A DNA stretch of 64,000 nucleotides from Oscillatoriales cyanobacterium CG2_30_40_61 (lineage in GTDB: Bacteria > Cyanobacteriota > Cyanobacteriia > Cyanobacteriales > Microcoleaceae). The stretch is taken from contig MNYZ01000067.1 in assembly GCA_001873365.1 (NCBI GenBank), positions 1 to 64,000 on the forward strand, given 5' to 3'. This document shows positions 54,019 through 61,946 of the stretch, piece after piece. The first letter of the stretch is position 1. Each line of letters opens with the position of its first letter. The position numbers were made by a program, and so were the translations under genes. The notes under the pieces were generated by a model. That model was not told the origin of the DNA. It ran no database searches and saw only the letters and a program-made list of their open reading frames with translations.

Positions 54019-55668
54019 ATGTTTTGCGAACAATGTGAACAAACCGCCAGTGGAAATGGCTGCCATCAATGGGGCGCCTGTGGTAAAAGTCCTGAAGTCA
54101 ATTCAATCCAAGATTTATTAGTCTATTGCTTACGCAGTATTGCCCCGATTGCGTTAAAAGCATATCAGTTAGGAATTCCCAATCGAGAAATTGATCGATT
54201 TACCTGTGAATCGATGTTTTCTACGATGACGAATGTTAACTTTAGTACCAAGCGATTTGCTGACTCGGCTCAACAGGCTTTACAATTGCGGGAAACCTTA
54301 AAACAAACGGTGGAAAGTAAAAGTCCCACCCCGATTTCCTGGCCAGAAATTTGTAATTATCAGCCAGATTTTGAGGAAAATTTATCGGAACAGGGACAAC
54401 AATTTGCCTTAGATTTAATTCAAAAAGCCAATGGGAATATTGATATCTATTCCCTGCAATTAACAACTATTTATGGCATCAAAGGATTAGCTTCCTACGC
54501 ATTCCACGCCTATGAACTGGGTCAAGAGGATGAAAAGATTTATCAGTTTATTTATGAAGCCTTAGTTGCTTTAGATCGGCAGGATTTAGACCTAAATGCC
54601 TGGGTGGGTTTAGCATTAAAAGTCGGAGAAATGAACCTACGGGCGATGGAGTTATTAGACGCCGGACACACCGGACATTATGGACATCCCACCCCGACAA
54701 CTGTTCCCTTAAATCATCGTCAAGGTAAGGCTATTTTAGTATCGGGACATGACATTAAACAGTTAGAAGCTCTGTTACAACAAACCGTAGATACGGGGAT
54801 TACAGTTTATACCCATGGAGAACTTTTACCCGCCCATGGTTATCCGATTTTAAAACAAAATTATCCCCATTTGTTCGGACATTATGGCACAGCATGGCAG
54901 AATCAAACCAAAGATTTTGCGAAGTTTCCCGGGGCTATTATCGTGACAACCAACTGTTTAATGCCACCCCATGAAACCTATAATGAAAAACTGTTTACAG
55001 TTGGGCCGGTGGGCTATCCAGGGTTAAATTATTTACCTTCAAATGCAGATGGTATTCCTGATTATACTCCGGTGATTCAACAAGCACTAGAACTCCCCGG
55101 CTTTTTAGATGATGAAACTCCCCGGGAAGTTAAAACCGGATTTGCCCATAATGCGGTTTTAAGTGTAGCTGATCACGTCGTTGAAGCGGTTAAAGCAGGC
55201 AAAATTCGTCACTTCTTTTTAGTTGGTGGTTGTGATGGGGCCAAACCAGGACGCAGTTACTATACGGAATTTGTGGAAAAAGTTCCTCAAGATTGTGTTG
55301 TCCTCACCTTAGCTTGTGGAAAATTCCGCTTTTTTGATAAAGAATTAGGTGAAATTGGTAACATTCCTCGATTGATGGATGTGGGACAATGTAATGATGC
55401 CTATTCTGCCATCCAAATTGCTTTAGGATTAGCCAAAGCCTTTGATATTGGTGTGAATGAATTACCCCTATCCATGATTTTGTCATGGTATGAACAAAAA
55501 GCTGTGGCGGTGTTATTAACCCTGTTATATTTGGGTATTCAAGACATCCGTTTAGGGCCTACATTACCCGCCTTTATTTCTCCCAATGTGTTCCAATTAC
55601 TGTCAGACACCTATCATCTGAAAGCTATTTCTACCCCCGATGAAGATTTAGCCGCTTGTTTAGCATAG
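54019..55668 (+). CDS. hcp: Hybrid-cluster protein (Hcp), hydroxylamine/nitric oxide reductase
   Basis: Hcp carries a cubane and a hybrid 4Fe-2O-2S cluster and reduces NO or hydroxylamine in vivo. The 549-residue protein has the N-terminal cubane motif Cys3, Cys6, Cys15, Cys21 (C-x2-C-x8-C-x5-C), the spacing of the type found in strict anaerobes. Hybrid-cluster ligands lie further on in YTHGELLPAHGYP, VTTNCLMPPHETY, VGGCDGAKPGRSYY and LACGKFRF. It sits between hoxF and hoxU on the same strand, so a fermentative or redox link is likely. I recall hcp beside hox genes in some other filamentous cyanobacteria. Confidence 0.96.
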   Translation: MFCEQCEQTASGNGCHQWGACGKSPEVNSIQDLLVYCLRSIAPIALKAYQLGIPNREIDRFTCESMFSTMTNVNFSTKRFADSAQQALQLRETLKQTVESKSPTPISWPEICNYQPDFEENLSEQGQQFALDLIQKANGNIDIYSLQLTTIYGIKGLASYAFHAYELGQEDEKIYQFIYEALVALDRQDLDLNAWVGLALKVGEMNLRAMELLDAGHTGHYGHPTPTTVPLNHRQGKAILVSGHDIKQLEALLQQTVDTGITVYTHGELLPAHGYPILKQNYPHLFGHYGTAWQNQTKDFAKFPGAIIVTTNCLMPPHETYNEKLFTVGPVGYPGLNYLPSNADGIPDYTPVIQQALELPGFLDDETPREVKTGFAHNAVLSVADHVVEAVKAGKIRHFFLVGGCDGAKPGRSYYTEFVEKVPQDCVVLTLACGKFRFFDKELGEIGNIPRLMDVGQCNDAYSAIQIALGLAKAFDIGVNELPLSMILSWYEQKAVAVLLTLLYLGIQDIRLGPTLPAFISPNVFQLLSDTYHLKAISTPDEDLAACLA

Positions 55669-57382: not shown

Positions 57383-58813
57383 ATGTCTAAAACCGTTATT
57401 ATTGATCCAGTAACTCGGATCGAAGGTCATGCTAAAATATCTGTCTATTTAGATGACGCCGGAGAAGTCGAAAATGCCCGTTTTCACGTCGTAGAATTTC
57501 GCGGCTTTGAAAAATTCTGCGAAGGACGACCAATGTTTGAAATGGCTGGAATTACGGCTAGAATTTGCGGAATTTGTCCCGTTAGTCACCTGTTAGCTTC
57601 TGCTAAAACCGGGGATAAAATCCTTGCAGTCCAAGTACCTCCAGCCGGGGAAAAACTGCGCCGGATGATGAATTTAGCCCAATTAACTCAATCCCATGCC
57701 TTAAGTTTTTTCCACCTGAGTAGTCCTGATTTTCTATTAGGTTGGGATAGTGATCCAGCTAAACGAAATGTCTTCGGTTTAATGGCGGCTGATCCCGATT
57801 TAGCCCGGGCAGGAATTCGCTTGCGTCAGTTCGGACAAACGGTGATTGAACTATTAGGAGCCAGAAAAATTCATGCGGCTTGGGCTGTTCCTGGTGGGGT
57901 GCGTTCTCCCCTTTCCGATGAAGGGCGAGAATGGATTATTGATCGCTTACCTGAAGCTCGACAAACTACCGAATTAGCTATTAGTATCTTCAAGCGTTTA
58001 TTAGATACGGAATTAAAAACCGAAATTGATGTTTTTGGCAAATTCCCCTCATTATTTATGGGATTAGTTGCCCCCAATGGCAATTGGGAACACTACGGCG
58101 GACACCTGAGATTTATTGATAGTAATGGGGAAATTGTCGCCGATGGTTTGAGTGAAGATAACTATCAAGACTTCCTGGGAGAAGCCGTCGAAAATTGGTC
58201 TTATTTGAAGTTTCCCTATTACAAACCCCTGGGATATCCCGATGGAATTTATCGGGTTGGGCCCTTAGCTAGATTGAACGTTTGTGATCAAATTGGCACC
58301 CCAGATGCAGACCGAGAATTAATTGAATTTCGTCATCGGGCGGGGGGACGGGTAGCCACTTCTTCCTTCTTCTATCATTATGCTCGTTTGGTGGAAATTC
58401 TAGCTTGTATTGAAGCCATTGAACTGTTAGTTGATGACCCTGATGTTATCTCAAAACGGGTGCGTTCAGAGGCGGGGATTAACTGTTTAGAAGGAGTGGG
58501 GGTTAGTGAAGCACCGCGCGGCACTTTATTCCATCATTATCAAGTAGATGAAAATGGATTAATTAAGAAAGTTAACTTAATTATTGCCACCGGACAAAAC
58601 AATTTAGCCATGAATAAAACCGTGACTCAAATTGCCCAACATTATATTCATGGTAATGATATTCCAGAGGGAATGTTAAACCGAGTAGAAGCCGGAATTC
58701 GGGCTTATGATCCTTGTTTAAGTTGTTCCACCCACGCCGTCGGACAAATGCCCTTACACATTCAATTAATTCAAAAGGACGGAACAATTATTCAAGAAAA
58801 ATACCGCCATTAA
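57383..58813 (+). CDS. hoxH: Bidirectional NiFe hydrogenase large subunit HoxH
   Basis: HoxH carries the NiFe active site. Cys62 and Cys65 ([10 protein letters not shown]) and Cys445 and Cys448 (DPCLSCSTH) are the four ligands. HoxW should cut after His451, removing 25 residues. AGAGG precedes the ATG. The 476-residue length is normal, and no change in any catalytic residue is seen. Confidence 0.98.
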
Positions 58814-58820
58814 CCCCACC

Positions 58821-58921
58821 GTTGTTGCGCTGAAGCGCAATCTTAAGATCTCAAGCCCAACAACATTTTTCAATCCTGTTGTTGCGCTTGAGCGCAATCT
58901 TAAGATCTCAAGCCCAACAAC
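58821..58921. repeat. Two direct 44-bp repeats after hoxH
   Basis: Copies at 58821-58864 and 58878-58921 begin GTTGTTGCGCT and end AAGATCTCAAGCCCAACAAC. Each can fold on itself (GTTGTTG...CAACAAC). They separate hoxH from the signalling insert and may terminate or process the hoxH message. Confidence 0.9.
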
Positions 58922-58947: not shown

Positions 58948-59211
58948 ATGCCAAAGGAAAACTTATATTTGTGTATGGGTTCTGCTTGTCATCAGCTTGG
59001 AGTGTATGAAGTGTTACCGAAATTGCAAGCCTTGATGAGTGAATATAATATTGATCACAAAGTCGAGCTAAAAGGCTCATTTTGTTTAGAAACTTGTAGT
59101 TCAGGAATTGTGATGAAATTTAAGGATTTGCATTTTATTAATATTAGTCCTCAAAATATTGAAGACAAATTTTTAAAAGAAATTCTTCCCGCCATTAAAA
59201 ATCATAATTAA
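58948..59211 (+). CDS. Thioredoxin-like 2Fe-2S ferredoxin-domain protein
   Basis: An 87-residue protein. The ATG at 58948 follows TAGGAAG; the earlier start would lie in the repeat. LYLCMGSACHQ and GSFCLETCSSG give four cysteines in the arrangement of NuoE/HoxE-type 2Fe-2S domains. It resembles the small 2Fe-2S proteins of clostridial FeFe-hydrogenase clusters. It is first of three genes inserted between hoxH and hoxW and ends 10 bp before the PAS gene. It could be an electron relay or a redox sensor for the next two proteins. Confidence 0.85.
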   Translation: MPKENLYLCMGSACHQLGVYEVLPKLQALMSEYNIDHKVELKGSFCLETCSSGIVMKFKDLHFINISPQNIEDKFLKEILPAIKNHN

Positions 59212-59221
59212 TATAACGACT

Positions 59222-59722
59222 ATGTTAGAAACCACTCAAAATCACCTCTGGCAACTTTTATGGGAATATGATCCTAACGGTTTAATTGTAGTAGACTCAG
59301 ACTTGATAATTAAAGTTGTTAATCCGGCTTTTTGTAAACTGTTCAATGTTGAAGAAAGTCAAATTATTGGTCAACCAGTAACGGAAATTTTAGGAACAGT
59401 AGATCATTTTAAAACTGTTTGGGAAACTAATCAAGTGATTCGGGGACAGGAAACAGAATATCCTGAATATCATTTGTATATTCGAGAGTTTATTTTTCCG
59501 ATTAAGGAAGAAAATATTATTGGCTGTATTATGAGCGATATTACGGCGGAAATGGAACGCAAAAAAGAAACGGATATAATCAAGGCTGAAACTGTTAAAA
59601 AAGTGAATGAAGTCGTTGATAATCAAATGAAAGTCGCTCAAGAAATTGCCGGGTTATTAGGAGAAACTACCGCCGAAACTAAAATTAGTTTACTTAAAAT
59701 TATTGAAATGGTGAATCAGTAA
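59222..59722 (+). CDS. PAS-domain signalling protein
   Basis: A 166-residue protein. A single PAS domain covers residues about 8-110 (GLIVVDSDLIIKVVNPAFCKLFNVEE, then REFIFPIKEENIIGCIMSDI). It is followed by a long amphipathic helix (KKETDIIKAETVKKVNEVVD...QEIAGLLGETTAETK) with no kinase or output domain. It must therefore act through a partner, most simply the phosphatase encoded 69 bp downstream. Whether it holds a cofactor cannot be seen; Cys43 in AFCKLF could matter. Confidence 0.85.
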   Translation: MLETTQNHLWQLLWEYDPNGLIVVDSDLIIKVVNPAFCKLFNVEESQIIGQPVTEILGTVDHFKTVWETNQVIRGQETEYPEYHLYIREFIFPIKEENIIGCIMSDITAEMERKKETDIIKAETVKKVNEVVDNQMKVAQEIAGLLGETTAETKISLLKIIEMVNQ

Positions 59723-59728
59723 ACCATC

Positions 59729-59761
59729 AGAAACCCGGTTTCTAAGAGAAATCGGGTTTCT
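59729..59761. repeat. Paired AGAAACCCGGTTTCT palindromes
   Basis: Two near-palindromes (59729-59743 and 59746-59761) of the kind seen after gap1 (24545-24579). Here they lie between two cotranscribed genes. Confidence 0.75.
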
Positions 59762-59791
59762 ATCTATTCCCTAGATTTTAATAAAATTAAT

Positions 59792-60958
59792 ATGAATCAA
59801 GATAACTTTTTTGATATTTGTCACCTGAGTTTGAATAAAAAAGGCGAAGAACTTTGTGGTGACCAAGTTAAATTTACCAAAACCGAAACTAAAAGCACCA
59901 TTGTTTTATCCGATGGTTTAGGAAGTGGGGTAAAAGCGAGTATTTTAGCCACCTTGACCACGGAAATTTTAATCACCATGTTAAATGCGGATGTTCTGCT
60001 TGAGGAAGTGATTAAAACCGTGATTGGAACCTTACCTATTTGTCAGGTGAGAAAAATTGCCTATGCAACTTTTACGATTATTTCTATTAATCATTTAACC
60101 AATGAATTTAAAGTAATTAATTTTGATAATCCGCCAATTCTTTATTTTAAAAAAGGTCGAATTGTTAAATTAGAAACAAAAACTGATAAGATTTTAGGGA
60201 AAAAAATTCAATATTCAGGAGGAAAATTAGAACGGGGAGATTTTATTGGGGCGATTAGTGATGGTATCCTTTATGCGGGGTTAGGGGATACGATGAATTT
60301 TGGCTGGGGTTGGGATAATATTGCTAAATATATGGAGAGAATTTTTATTAGTCAAGCGACTAATTCCCGCACTATTATTGAACAAGTCCTATCAGAAACC
60401 CGTTCTTTATATCGGGAAAAAATTGGCGATGATGCTACATTTGTGGGGGTTTATGTTAGAAAACCAAACCCGGTGATGATTTTTACTGGCCCCCCTTTAG
60501 ATATTACTCAGGATGAATTGTATGCCGATAGATTATTAAATTTTCCCGGTAGAAAAGTAATTTGTGGCGGAACAACAGGTAATTTAGTGGCTAATTATAT
60601 GGGAGAAACTATTGAAATGGATATTGCGACCATGCGAAAAGATTTACCGCCTATTGGTAAATTAAAAGAAGTGGATTTAGTCACAGAAGGGATTTTAACT
60701 ATTTCTAAAGCTACGGAAATTTTGAGAAAATGTAAGGGGGATATTGCCCGGTTAGCTTCTGATAATAATGGCGCGGTTTTATTGGCGCGGGAAATTATCG
60801 AAGGGGATTCAATTTATTTTTTAGTGGGTCAACAAATTAATGAGTTTTATCAGAACCCTTTATTACCTAAAAATATTTCAATTCGTCGCAATTTAATTGA
60901 GGATTTAGTCCAGTTACTTCGTAGTCAACAAAAGGAAGTTGTGATAGAATATTGTTAA
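59792..60958 (+). CDS. SpoIIE/PP2C-type serine phosphatase of the hydrogenase-linked kind
   Basis: A 388-residue protein. The PP2C-like domain spans residues about 10-230 with metal-binding acidic motifs: LCGDQ (Asp24), VLSDGLGSG (Asp41), GAISDGI and GDDATFVGVYV. The C-terminal 150 residues form a separate domain (KVICGGTTGNLVANYMGE, MDIATMRKDLPP, EILRKCKGDIARLASD). This build matches the phosphatases I recall beside clostridial FeFe-hydrogenase genes (HsfB-like). It ends 20 bp before hoxW. Its phosphoprotein target is unknown. Confidence 0.85.
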   Translation: MNQDNFFDICHLSLNKKGEELCGDQVKFTKTETKSTIVLSDGLGSGVKASILATLTTEILITMLNADVLLEEVIKTVIGTLPICQVRKIAYATFTIISINHLTNEFKVINFDNPPILYFKKGRIVKLETKTDKILGKKIQYSGGKLERGDFIGAISDGILYAGLGDTMNFGWGWDNIAKYMERIFISQATNSRTIIEQVLSETRSLYREKIGDDATFVGVYVRKPNPVMIFTGPPLDITQDELYADRLLNFPGRKVICGGTTGNLVANYMGETIEMDIATMRKDLPPIGKLKEVDLVTEGILTISKATEILRKCKGDIARLASDNNGAVLLAREIIEGDSIYFLVGQQINEFYQNPLLPKNISIRRNLIEDLVQLLRSQQKEVVIEYC

Positions 60959-60978: not shown

Positions 60979-61422
60979 ATGATCTTAATCGTAGGATATG
61001 GGAATCCTATTCGAGGAGATGATGGTGTTGGTCAAGCGGTAATAACAGAGGTTGAACAGTGGAATTTAACAAATGTGCGATCGCTTTCTCTACATCAACT
61101 TACCCCCGAAGTTGCCGCCCAAATGGCTGAAGTTGATACGGTTATTTTTGTTGATGCTGCTTTAGAAGGAGAGACAATTAATATTACTTCCTTGGAAGCT
61201 TTACCCTCAAATTTATTTAATTGGGGACATTCTTTAAATCCGCGATCGCTTTTATCCTTAACCCAATTTCTCTATCAGAAACAACCCCAAGCCTGGTTAA
61301 TTGCGATCCCAGGAGAAAATTTTGAACTCTGTGAAACCCTATCTCAAAAAGCTCTCAATGGGATGCAAGAGGCTTTAAAAATTATTAAAAATATTGTTAA
61401 TAAAACCCCAAATGAATTATAA
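60979..61422 (+). CDS. hoxW: HoxW, maturation endopeptidase of HoxH
   Basis: A 147-residue HycI/HoxW-family nickel-dependent protease. GYGNPIRGDDGVG at 6-18 provides Asp14/15. HQLTPEVAAQMAEVDTVIFVDAA provides the second acidic ligand, and GHSLNPRSLL the His. It should cleave HoxH after His451. The signalling trio lies directly upstream and a triple repeat downstream. Confidence 0.93.
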   Translation: MILIVGYGNPIRGDDGVGQAVITEVEQWNLTNVRSLSLHQLTPEVAAQMAEVDTVIFVDAALEGETINITSLEALPSNLFNWGHSLNPRSLLSLTQFLYQKQPQAWLIAIPGENFELCETLSQKALNGMQEALKIIKNIVNKTPNEL

Positions 61423-61428
61423 TTAACC

Positions 61429-61599
61429 GTAGTAAGTCCTTTAGGACTCAATCAAACCCCGAAAAAGAAACCCCTAAAGGGGTTACTACGGTAGTAAGTC
61501 CTTTAGGACTCAATCAAACCCCGAAAAAGAAACCCCTAAAGGGGTTACTACGGTAGTGAGTCCTTTAGGACTCAATCAAACCCCGTTAGGGGTTACTAC
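61429..61599. repeat. Tandem 62-bp repeat, 2.8 copies, between hoxW and hypA
   Basis: Units start at 61429, 61491 and 61553; the third has lost 15 bp of its middle. Each unit is itself an inverted repeat (GTAGTAAGTCCTTTAGGACT ... AGGGGTTACTAC). It ends 5 bp before the hypA ATG, so it covers the place of the ribosome site. The region upstream of hypA reads TACTACAAATT, with no obvious Shine-Dalgarno. Confidence 0.92.
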
Positions 61600-61604
61600 A
61601 AATT

Positions 61605-61946
61605 ATGCACGAAGTTAGTATTATGGAACAAACCCTAGAGATTGCCTTAAATCATGCTAAAAAACAAGGGGCAACTCGAATTCATTGGGTTAAAATGAAA
61701 GTAGGAGAATTATCAGGAGTCATCCCAGAAGCGTTAGAATTTGCCTTTGATGTAGTGGCGAAAGGAACAATAGCAGAAACCGCTATTTTTGAAATAGATT
61801 CTATTCCAGTTCGCTGTTATTGCCATCATTGTCAGGTTGAATTTCAGCCGGATGATTATGTTTATGAATGTCCCCATTGTCATCAATATAGCCTTGATAT
61901 TCTTCAGGGAAAAGAATTAGAATTAACATCCTTAGAGGTTTCTTAA
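61605..61946 (+). CDS. hypA: Hydrogenase nickel insertion protein HypA
   Basis: HypA with HypB inserts nickel into the hydrogenase large subunit. The 113-residue protein begins MHEVSI with the nickel ligand His2. The zinc site is two CxxC motifs (CYCHHC region at about 71-76 and CPHC at about 90-93). It lies 2 bp upstream of hypB. Confidence 0.96.

Follow-up and report, generated by a model that had tools for sequence, protein, structure and literature searches.

Three plus-strand genes stand between hoxH and hoxW in the NiFe (Hox) hydrogenase operon of the window, by which we mean the whole 64,000-nt stretch of contig MNYZ01000067.1 of Oscillatoriales cyanobacterium CG2_30_40_61 (contig C15 in searches of its own genome). 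They encode a thioredoxin-like [2Fe-2S] protein, hereafter Fd2, a PAS protein with a C-terminal output helix, and a SpoIIE/PP2C-type phosphatase, with gaps of 10 bp (Fd2/PAS) and 69 bp (PAS/phosphatase). Judged by sequence comparison, these genes are very probably a reduced HfsABC-like regulatory cassette without the [FeFe]-hydrogenase sensor part. Our full explanation, in which they form a sensor–phosphatase cassette that tunes fermentation or the hydrogenase, carries a probability of about 0.6. Directly observed are the three genes, the fact that they occur and are lost together, their link with hoxH, and the match of the PAS protein to the C-terminus of HydS. The cassette type is already known; what is new is an HfsABC-like cassette that lacks the hydrogenase sensor part and sits beside a NiFe hydrogenase.

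An earlier note on this DNA had described 2Fe-2S, PAS, and SpoIIE/PP2C genes packed between hoxH and hoxW, and open reading frames, Pfam matches, and profile searches confirm that description. Conservation and the joint presence of the three genes rule out chance or mis-called genes.

Proteins encoded by the cassette

The window cassette is opened by Fd2 (58948..59211, + strand, 87 aa), as HfsABC/HydS-type cassettes are by a small thioredoxin-like 2Fe-2S gene. Fd2 alone matches Pfam 2Fe-2S_thioredx with an E-value of 5.5e-4 and 20.2 bits, under the curated cut-off of 24.8. A profile built from Fd2 and 17 relatives finds 7p5h_A, the C-terminal part of the Fe-hydrogenase alpha subunit (HydA), as its best solved relative (E 6.5e-18), and it also matches 2Fe-2S domains of the HydC/HoxE/NuoE type; by these sequence profiles, the 2Fe-2S assignment is firmer than by Pfam alone. 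Cys 9, 14, 46, and 50 are invariant in 18/18 aligned proteins, and the four-Cys pattern recurs in 68/68 Fd2-type proteins from the loci of the bacterial and archaeal scan described below. In three cyanobacterial genomes (G187, G109, and G119), the Fd2 match crosses a stop at its end, and the reading frames are 84 aa long.

The PAS gene (59222..59722, +) encodes 166 aa, in which PAS is the sole Pfam domain (PAS_9, E 2.7e-9). The predicted structure shows a PAS fold followed by long helices, with a predicted local distance difference test score (pLDDT) of 83.7 that is lower from residue 131 onward. In a structure search, the model resembles many PAS/LOV proteins and points to no particular ligand. 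The informative comparison is with HydS, a putative sensory [FeFe] hydrogenase (PMC10055695; papers are cited here from portions of their text). Aligning short PAS proteins of the window type with HydS-type proteins by hhalign gave 169 columns, at HydS positions 408–576 of 585 (E 6.5e-45). Since this alignment covers only the HydS C-terminus, the window protein is, on sequence grounds, HydS stripped of the 4Fe-4S, H-cluster, and FeS parts, and it corresponds along almost all of its length to the C-terminal part of HydS/HfsB-type proteins, putative H2-sensing enzymes of fermenters. The HydS-type proteins scanned with Pfam (16 of the 61 locus proteins and three from family f31) carry Fe_hyd_lg_C and an FeS domain in 19/19 cases.

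The PAS domain is followed in the window protein by an LGETTAETK-type output helix. This segment, residues 128–158 (59603..59695, +) with the motif QMKVAQEIAGLLGETTAETK, is strongly conserved across short-PAS and HydS-type proteins. The residues after LGE were compared in 73 rows, 58 from HydS-type and 15 from short-PAS proteins: 46 have TTAETK there and 15 have TAAETK; one row, L068, is an artefact of the pattern match, and its actual tail carries the motif. Because Ala occupies the second position in 15/73 rows, the Thr found there cannot be a general phosphatase substrate. The LGE/TTAETK motif is absent from the 10 f31/f33 rows inspected (nine f31 rows and L049) and thus is not universal. 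Two loci from Desulfomonilaceae (L085:1736-4036 and L119:7614-10001) place a membrane Cache-HAMP-receiver-PAS protein before the same phosphatase. These proteins have the same terminal helix, and one output helix is thus found behind three different front ends.

The phosphatase gene (59792..60958, +) encodes 388 aa and matches Pfam SpoIIE well above the cut-off (E 1.1e-14; 55.2 bits versus 25). Its model is confident (pLDDT 88.1; predicted template modelling score, pTM, 0.83). The phosphatase domain comprises residues 1–225 (59792..60466, +), with residues 2–225 matching the SpoIIE-type PP2C structures 5ucg_A (Z 23.6) and 3pu9_A (Z 24.4); among solved phosphatases, SpoIIE, RsbX, and the RsbU domain of Rv1364c are the nearest. 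Residues D24, D41, G42, D157, G158, D213, and D214 are kept in 52/52 aligned proteins. The earlier note would have been undercut by a phosphatase lacking its metal-site residues, and this is not what the alignment contains; for the residues tested, sequence conservation rules out a dead phosphatase.

The same note had claimed a distinct C-terminal domain, which is borne out: residues 226–388 (60467..60955, +) form a conserved alpha/beta domain of 163 aa, as judged from conservation and the model. No Pfam family exceeded its cut-off in the members scanned (best E 0.0069, with each match in one of 17 members), and the best match among sequences of solved structures had an E-value of 0.31. A structure search with the whole phosphatase model was dominated by the phosphatase domain, and we make no claim of a novel fold for residues 226–388. 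No regulatory domain lies N-terminal to the phosphatase domain in the window protein.

Occurrence and loss in cyanobacteria

We searched a class sample of 242 cyanobacterial genomes, calling HoxH at E up to 1e-50 and PAS at E up to 1e-20. HoxH was found in 71 genomes. The phosphatase and the PAS protein were each found in 15, and these are the same 15 genomes, all of them HoxH-positive. The chance of 15 carriers all falling within 71 of 242 is 3.3e-9 under the assumption of independent genomes, which these are not. Fd2 follows hoxH at a distance of 13–424 bp in 13/15 carriers, and in a further one (G383, locus L160) the gap is 3498 bp and contains adhE. The genes are therefore not found mostly away from the hydrogenase, and the earlier view that they are no standard part of hox operons holds as well, with 15/71 hoxH genomes carrying them.

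A phylum sample of 292 genomes, 114 with a phosphatase match, added seven carriers of high identity, all with HoxH and PAS (G157, G255, G207, G187, G109, G119, and G151). The 101 matches beyond carriers are 29–38% identical, and all except G013 belong to family f31; two genomes with weak phosphatase matches (G203 and G197; E 2–3e-4) have neither PAS nor HoxH and were not counted as carriers. A search for Fd2 in 32 genomes was positive in 22/22 carriers and in 0/10 non-carriers at E 1e-10, nine of the latter having HoxH. All three genes thus occur in the same 22 cyanobacterial genomes among those tested. Seven named cyanobacterial carriers (L051–L056 and L061), which may overlap the sampled genomes, also have HoxH.

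The three-gene set remains where the operon is broken up. In G151, the genes lie on three contigs and Fd2 alone stays beside hoxH, and in G109 and G119, Fd2 and PAS are together while the phosphatase is apart, adjoining a HoxW-like gene. The converse case is G262 (L170), of the same genus as the window organism, in which hoxEF-hcp-hoxUYH-hoxW-hypAB is present and Fd2, PAS, and phosphatase are all missing. Its 161-bp hoxH–hoxW spacer contains an Fd2 start (33 nt, 88% identical) fused to the end of the phosphatase gene. On this sequence evidence, the three genes were lost together by deletion with hox intact, and the cassette is therefore dispensable for keeping hox.

These patterns bear on a different reading, in which Fd2 is an accessory electron carrier or a Hox subunit and the PAS and phosphatase genes are secondary passengers. 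The likeness of Fd2 to HydA and to HydC/HoxE/NuoE-type domains would fit, as would its lone position next to hoxH in G151; set against these are the retention of all three genes by 22/22 cyanobacterial carriers and their joint loss from G262, and we regard this reading as quite improbable.

The [FeFe] hydrogenase family PF02906 was not detected in 14/14 cyanobacterial carriers tested, the window's host included; among 14 control genomes, the control was positive only in Thermotoga maritima. PFOR lies near hox in several carriers. In two cyanobacteria (L054 and L160), adhE immediately precedes the cassette; in L160 it is located between hoxH and Fd2. The L054 gene encodes a bifunctional AdhE (1406.7 bits), and the L160 product matches it at 82%.

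Relatives outside cyanobacteria

A scan of bacterial and archaeal genomes returned at least 558 phosphatase relatives, and the best 80 loci were kept for neighborhood counts. In these 80, the gene before the phosphatase is of HydS type in 61, a short PAS gene in 14 (13 by script and L053 by eye), a Cache-HAMP-receiver-PAS gene in two (L085 and L119), and none that was recognized in three. A hydrogenase catalytic gene is nearby in 52 of the best 80 loci, which are stretches of unequal length. The earlier note had associated such gene sets with FeFe-hydrogenase clusters and had called for neighborhood maps and a phosphatase tree. The three genes form a cassette, and the maps place relatives in [FeFe]-hydrogenase clusters; locus L079, for example, has the order Fd2-HydS-phosphatase-HydA. 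A HydS-type gene also stands beside the phosphatase in 10/10 f31-group loci read. Nine f31 loci of the same phylum, from genomes of ~2 Mb (L041–L048 and L050), have the long HydS version of the cassette. In Myxococcota/Planctomycetota contexts, the phosphatase relatives L109 and L070 have no recognized PAS partner.

The short-PAS version also occurs in seven non-cyanobacterial genomes tested for hydrogenases, and 7/7 have an [FeFe] hydrogenase domain or a HoxH-like protein, a raw count with no background rate. The [FeFe] domain was found in L057, L060, L062, L063, and L071, and the HoxH-like protein in L058, L059, and L063, within hox-type clusters. In L057 the cassette neighbors HydE and HydG genes, in L060 and L071 it precedes hydCBA, and in L059 it is downstream of Nfn-like genes. 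A rex redox-repressor gene is near the phosphatase cassette in L063, L066, L069, and L071, which is in line with a redox/fermentation regulon.

We built a quick tree of 62 phosphatases with support from the Shimodaira–Hasegawa-like approximate likelihood ratio test (SH-aLRT) and no bootstrap; the tree is unrooted (midpoint for drawing), and L049 has a very long branch. The short-PAS phosphatases form one clade in 18/19 cases (SH-aLRT 99), spanning Cyanobacteriota, Armatimonadota, Chloroflexota, Verrucomicrobiota, Fusobacteriota, and KSB3. The cyanobacterial rows, 12 in all, are a clade of their own (SH-aLRT 99) that groups with the remaining short-PAS rows, and a separate clade holds the five from f31. 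Vertical descent from an ancestor common with the non-photosynthetic f31 is thus not favored, and the tree does not show a single origin of the short-PAS form, as L071 falls outside the clade of 18. The tree suggests that a cyanobacterium gained the cassette from outside, with descent and losses thereafter. On this unrooted sequence tree, the hydrogenase sensor part of the window cassette may either have been lost or never have been present, HydS being a later fusion in the second case.

The missing sensor part also gives rise to the reading that the cassette is a decayed, functionless relic that arrived with other genes. That part is missing elsewhere in the genome too (PF02906), and the distribution is patchy, with loss in G262. 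A functionless relic is very improbable, in our judgment, given a clade of 18/19 short-PAS phosphatases over several phyla, conserved catalytic residues, four Cys, and output helix, and a gene set that persists where linkage is broken.

Comparison with known systems

The nearest system with genetics is hfsABCD of Thermoanaerobacterium, in which HfsB, a PAS-bearing [FeFe] hydrogenase, is of HydS type, HfsC is serine-phosphatase-like (PMC11837493), and HfsD is of HydA2 type. The likeness lies in the order of a small protein, a PAS-bearing protein, and a SpoIIE-type phosphatase beside a hydrogenase. The window differs in that HydS is reduced to PAS and helix, the linked hydrogenase is the NiFe Hox enzyme, and the cyanobacterial host has no detectable [FeFe] hydrogenase. 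By analogy of gene order and domains, we infer that Fd2, PAS, and phosphatase are the counterparts of HfsA, the C-terminal part of HfsB, and HfsC.

Published genetics back a regulatory role of the hfs operon (PMC5707799, PMC11837493). Deletion of hfsA or hfsB raised ethanol ~1.8-fold and increased adhE expression, whereas deletion of hfsC or hfsD gave no rise, and high ethanol yield requires wild-type hfsC and hfsD (PMC5707799). These results implicate fermentation genes, adhE among them, no less than the hydrogenase.

HydS of group C (T. maritima TmHydS) has the same C-terminal PAS and output helix, and the window cassette is without its 4Fe-4S, H-cluster, and C-terminal FeS domains; the authors of the TmHydS work assume that it regulates the hydrogenase of the same operon (PMC10055695). 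SpoIIE, RsbX, and RsbU (PPM/PP2C) share the phosphatase fold and metal site. Unlike them, the window phosphatase lacks a preceding regulatory domain and has its own conserved 163-aa C-terminal domain and a putative separate PAS partner. Among NiFe hydrogenases, the H2-sensing HoxBC-HoxJ-HoxA system of Ralstonia also provides signalling for hydrogenase genes (PMC5707799), whereas the window cassette has neither a histidine kinase (Pfam) nor a regulatory NiFe hydrogenase and has a phosphatase output instead. Among the open-licence papers listed by literature searches, and in text of PMC5186783, PMC3858816, and PMC2674450 (figures and supplements being outside this scope), there was no mention of the cassette in a hox operon; for Anabaena PCC 7120, three ORFs (open reading frames) between hoxH and hoxW are described (PMC3858816).

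Genomic context of the cassette

The cassette is flanked by hoxH (57383..58813, +) upstream and hoxW (60979..61422, +) downstream. Further upstream are hoxE, hoxF, a hybrid cluster protein gene, hoxU, and hoxY, and further downstream hypA and hypB; a divergent block near the hox genes contains hypC, a PFOR gene, and a dihydroorotate-dehydrogenase-like gene. The hybrid cluster protein gene (54019–55668) is thus part of the hox operon, with hoxF before it and hoxU after it, and the same position is reported for Lyngbya and Arthrospira (PMC2674450). Between hoxW and hypA lie three copies of a 62-nt direct repeat (61426–61611), the third being 68% identical; the interval from hoxH to Fd2 holds a 44-nt repeat twice (58821–58921). 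A promoter scan gave no excess over shuffled sequence (10 found versus a shuffle mean of 11.6).

Proposed mechanism and alternatives

We propose that the PAS coiled coil is altered by the redox state of Fd2, by a ligand bound to the PAS domain, or by both; the odds of a redox input through Fd2 appear about even. The conserved C-terminal PAS helix would then contact the switch helices of the phosphatase and occupy the place of the long regulatory helix of Bacillus SpoIIE, which keeps the SpoIIE switch helices positioned beside the metal-binding Asp-Gly (PMC5468089). The window phosphatase, unlike SpoIIE, has no N-terminal regulatory domain, and the PAS helix is therefore the natural candidate for the switch contact; by this analogy, gating of the phosphatase by the helix is likely. 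The phosphatase would dephosphorylate a protein encoded elsewhere; through that protein, in darkness or anoxia, the expression or activity of fermentation enzymes (AdhE, PFOR), of the hydrogenase, or of both would be set. An output on fermentation or hydrogenase is probable.

Several observations weigh against this explanation. The cassette is missing from 56/71 hoxH genomes of the class sample, so that Hox works without it. It lies on another contig, not beside hoxH, in G310, and in G109, G119, G151, and G187 the linkage of the three genes to each other or to hoxH is partly or wholly broken. The short-PAS loci L058, L059, L063, and L071 have no Fd2 beside them, and in the L085 genome, where the PAS front end is of another kind, [FeFe] matches are absent and the HoxH-like match is no more than partial. 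The modelled PAS C-terminal helix is of low confidence (mean pLDDT 55–73 from residue 131). Fd2 is equated with HfsA by gene order, hfs being known here by description and not by sequence. Finally, G262, which has no cassette, also has PFOR by hox, and PFOR is therefore no carrier-specific sign.

One more point of this kind concerns the target. In Rsb/SpoIIE-type partner switching, a STAS anti-anti-sigma protein would be dephosphorylated and a sigma factor freed for hox and fermentation genes. The solved phosphatases closest to the window protein come from such systems, and its genome holds nine STAS matches and four over-cut-off HATPase_c_2 matches, two of them ~2 kb apart on contig C22. No over-cut-off STAS or RsbW-type match lies on the window's contig C15, which counts against our explanation as well, and no STAS/RsbW-type gene was seen beside the cassette in the loci inspected, where not every neighbor was scanned with Pfam. 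As a full account we think partner switching somewhat unlikely; it is also one possible output arm of the explanation that we favor.

Alternatively, control may be direct, with the phosphatase dephosphorylating AdhE, PFOR, or a Hox subunit and so altering its activity with no change in transcription. The close linkage to hoxH, and to adhE in two genomes, is compatible with such control. In T. saccharolyticum, the changes in NADH-dependent alcohol dehydrogenase (NADH-ADH) and aldehyde dehydrogenase (NADH-ALDH) activities disagreed with each other, and the authors of that study read this as a possible sign of post-transcriptional regulation (PMC5707799). The adhE transcript also rose in that study, however, and direct enzyme control seems unlikely to us.

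A more specific version of the sensor–phosphatase explanation is that Hox itself senses in trans. Electrons passing through the HoxE/F/U iron–sulphur chain would set the redox state of Fd2, which would dock on the PAS protein in place of the H-cluster domain and so gate the phosphatase. The presence of an [FeFe] domain or HoxH-like protein in all seven non-cyanobacterial short-PAS genomes is in line with this idea; the genomes of L058, L059, and L063, which have a HoxH-like protein and no Fd2 next to the cassette, count against it, and we hold it doubtful. If it were true, a cassette that descends from [FeFe]-hydrogenase sensing would be informed of H2 and NAD(H) poise by a catalytic hydrogenase.

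Implications

The control of the cyanobacterial Hox hydrogenase and of dark fermentation is an old question of applied interest. A sensor–phosphatase cassette inside the operon, with a Thermoanaerobacterium relative in which genetics already works (ethanol, adhE), would offer a direct genetic handle on it, and the contact between PAS helix and phosphatase could be studied on small soluble proteins. The cassette also shows that the output half of a putative H2 sensor can endure where the hydrogenase half is missing.

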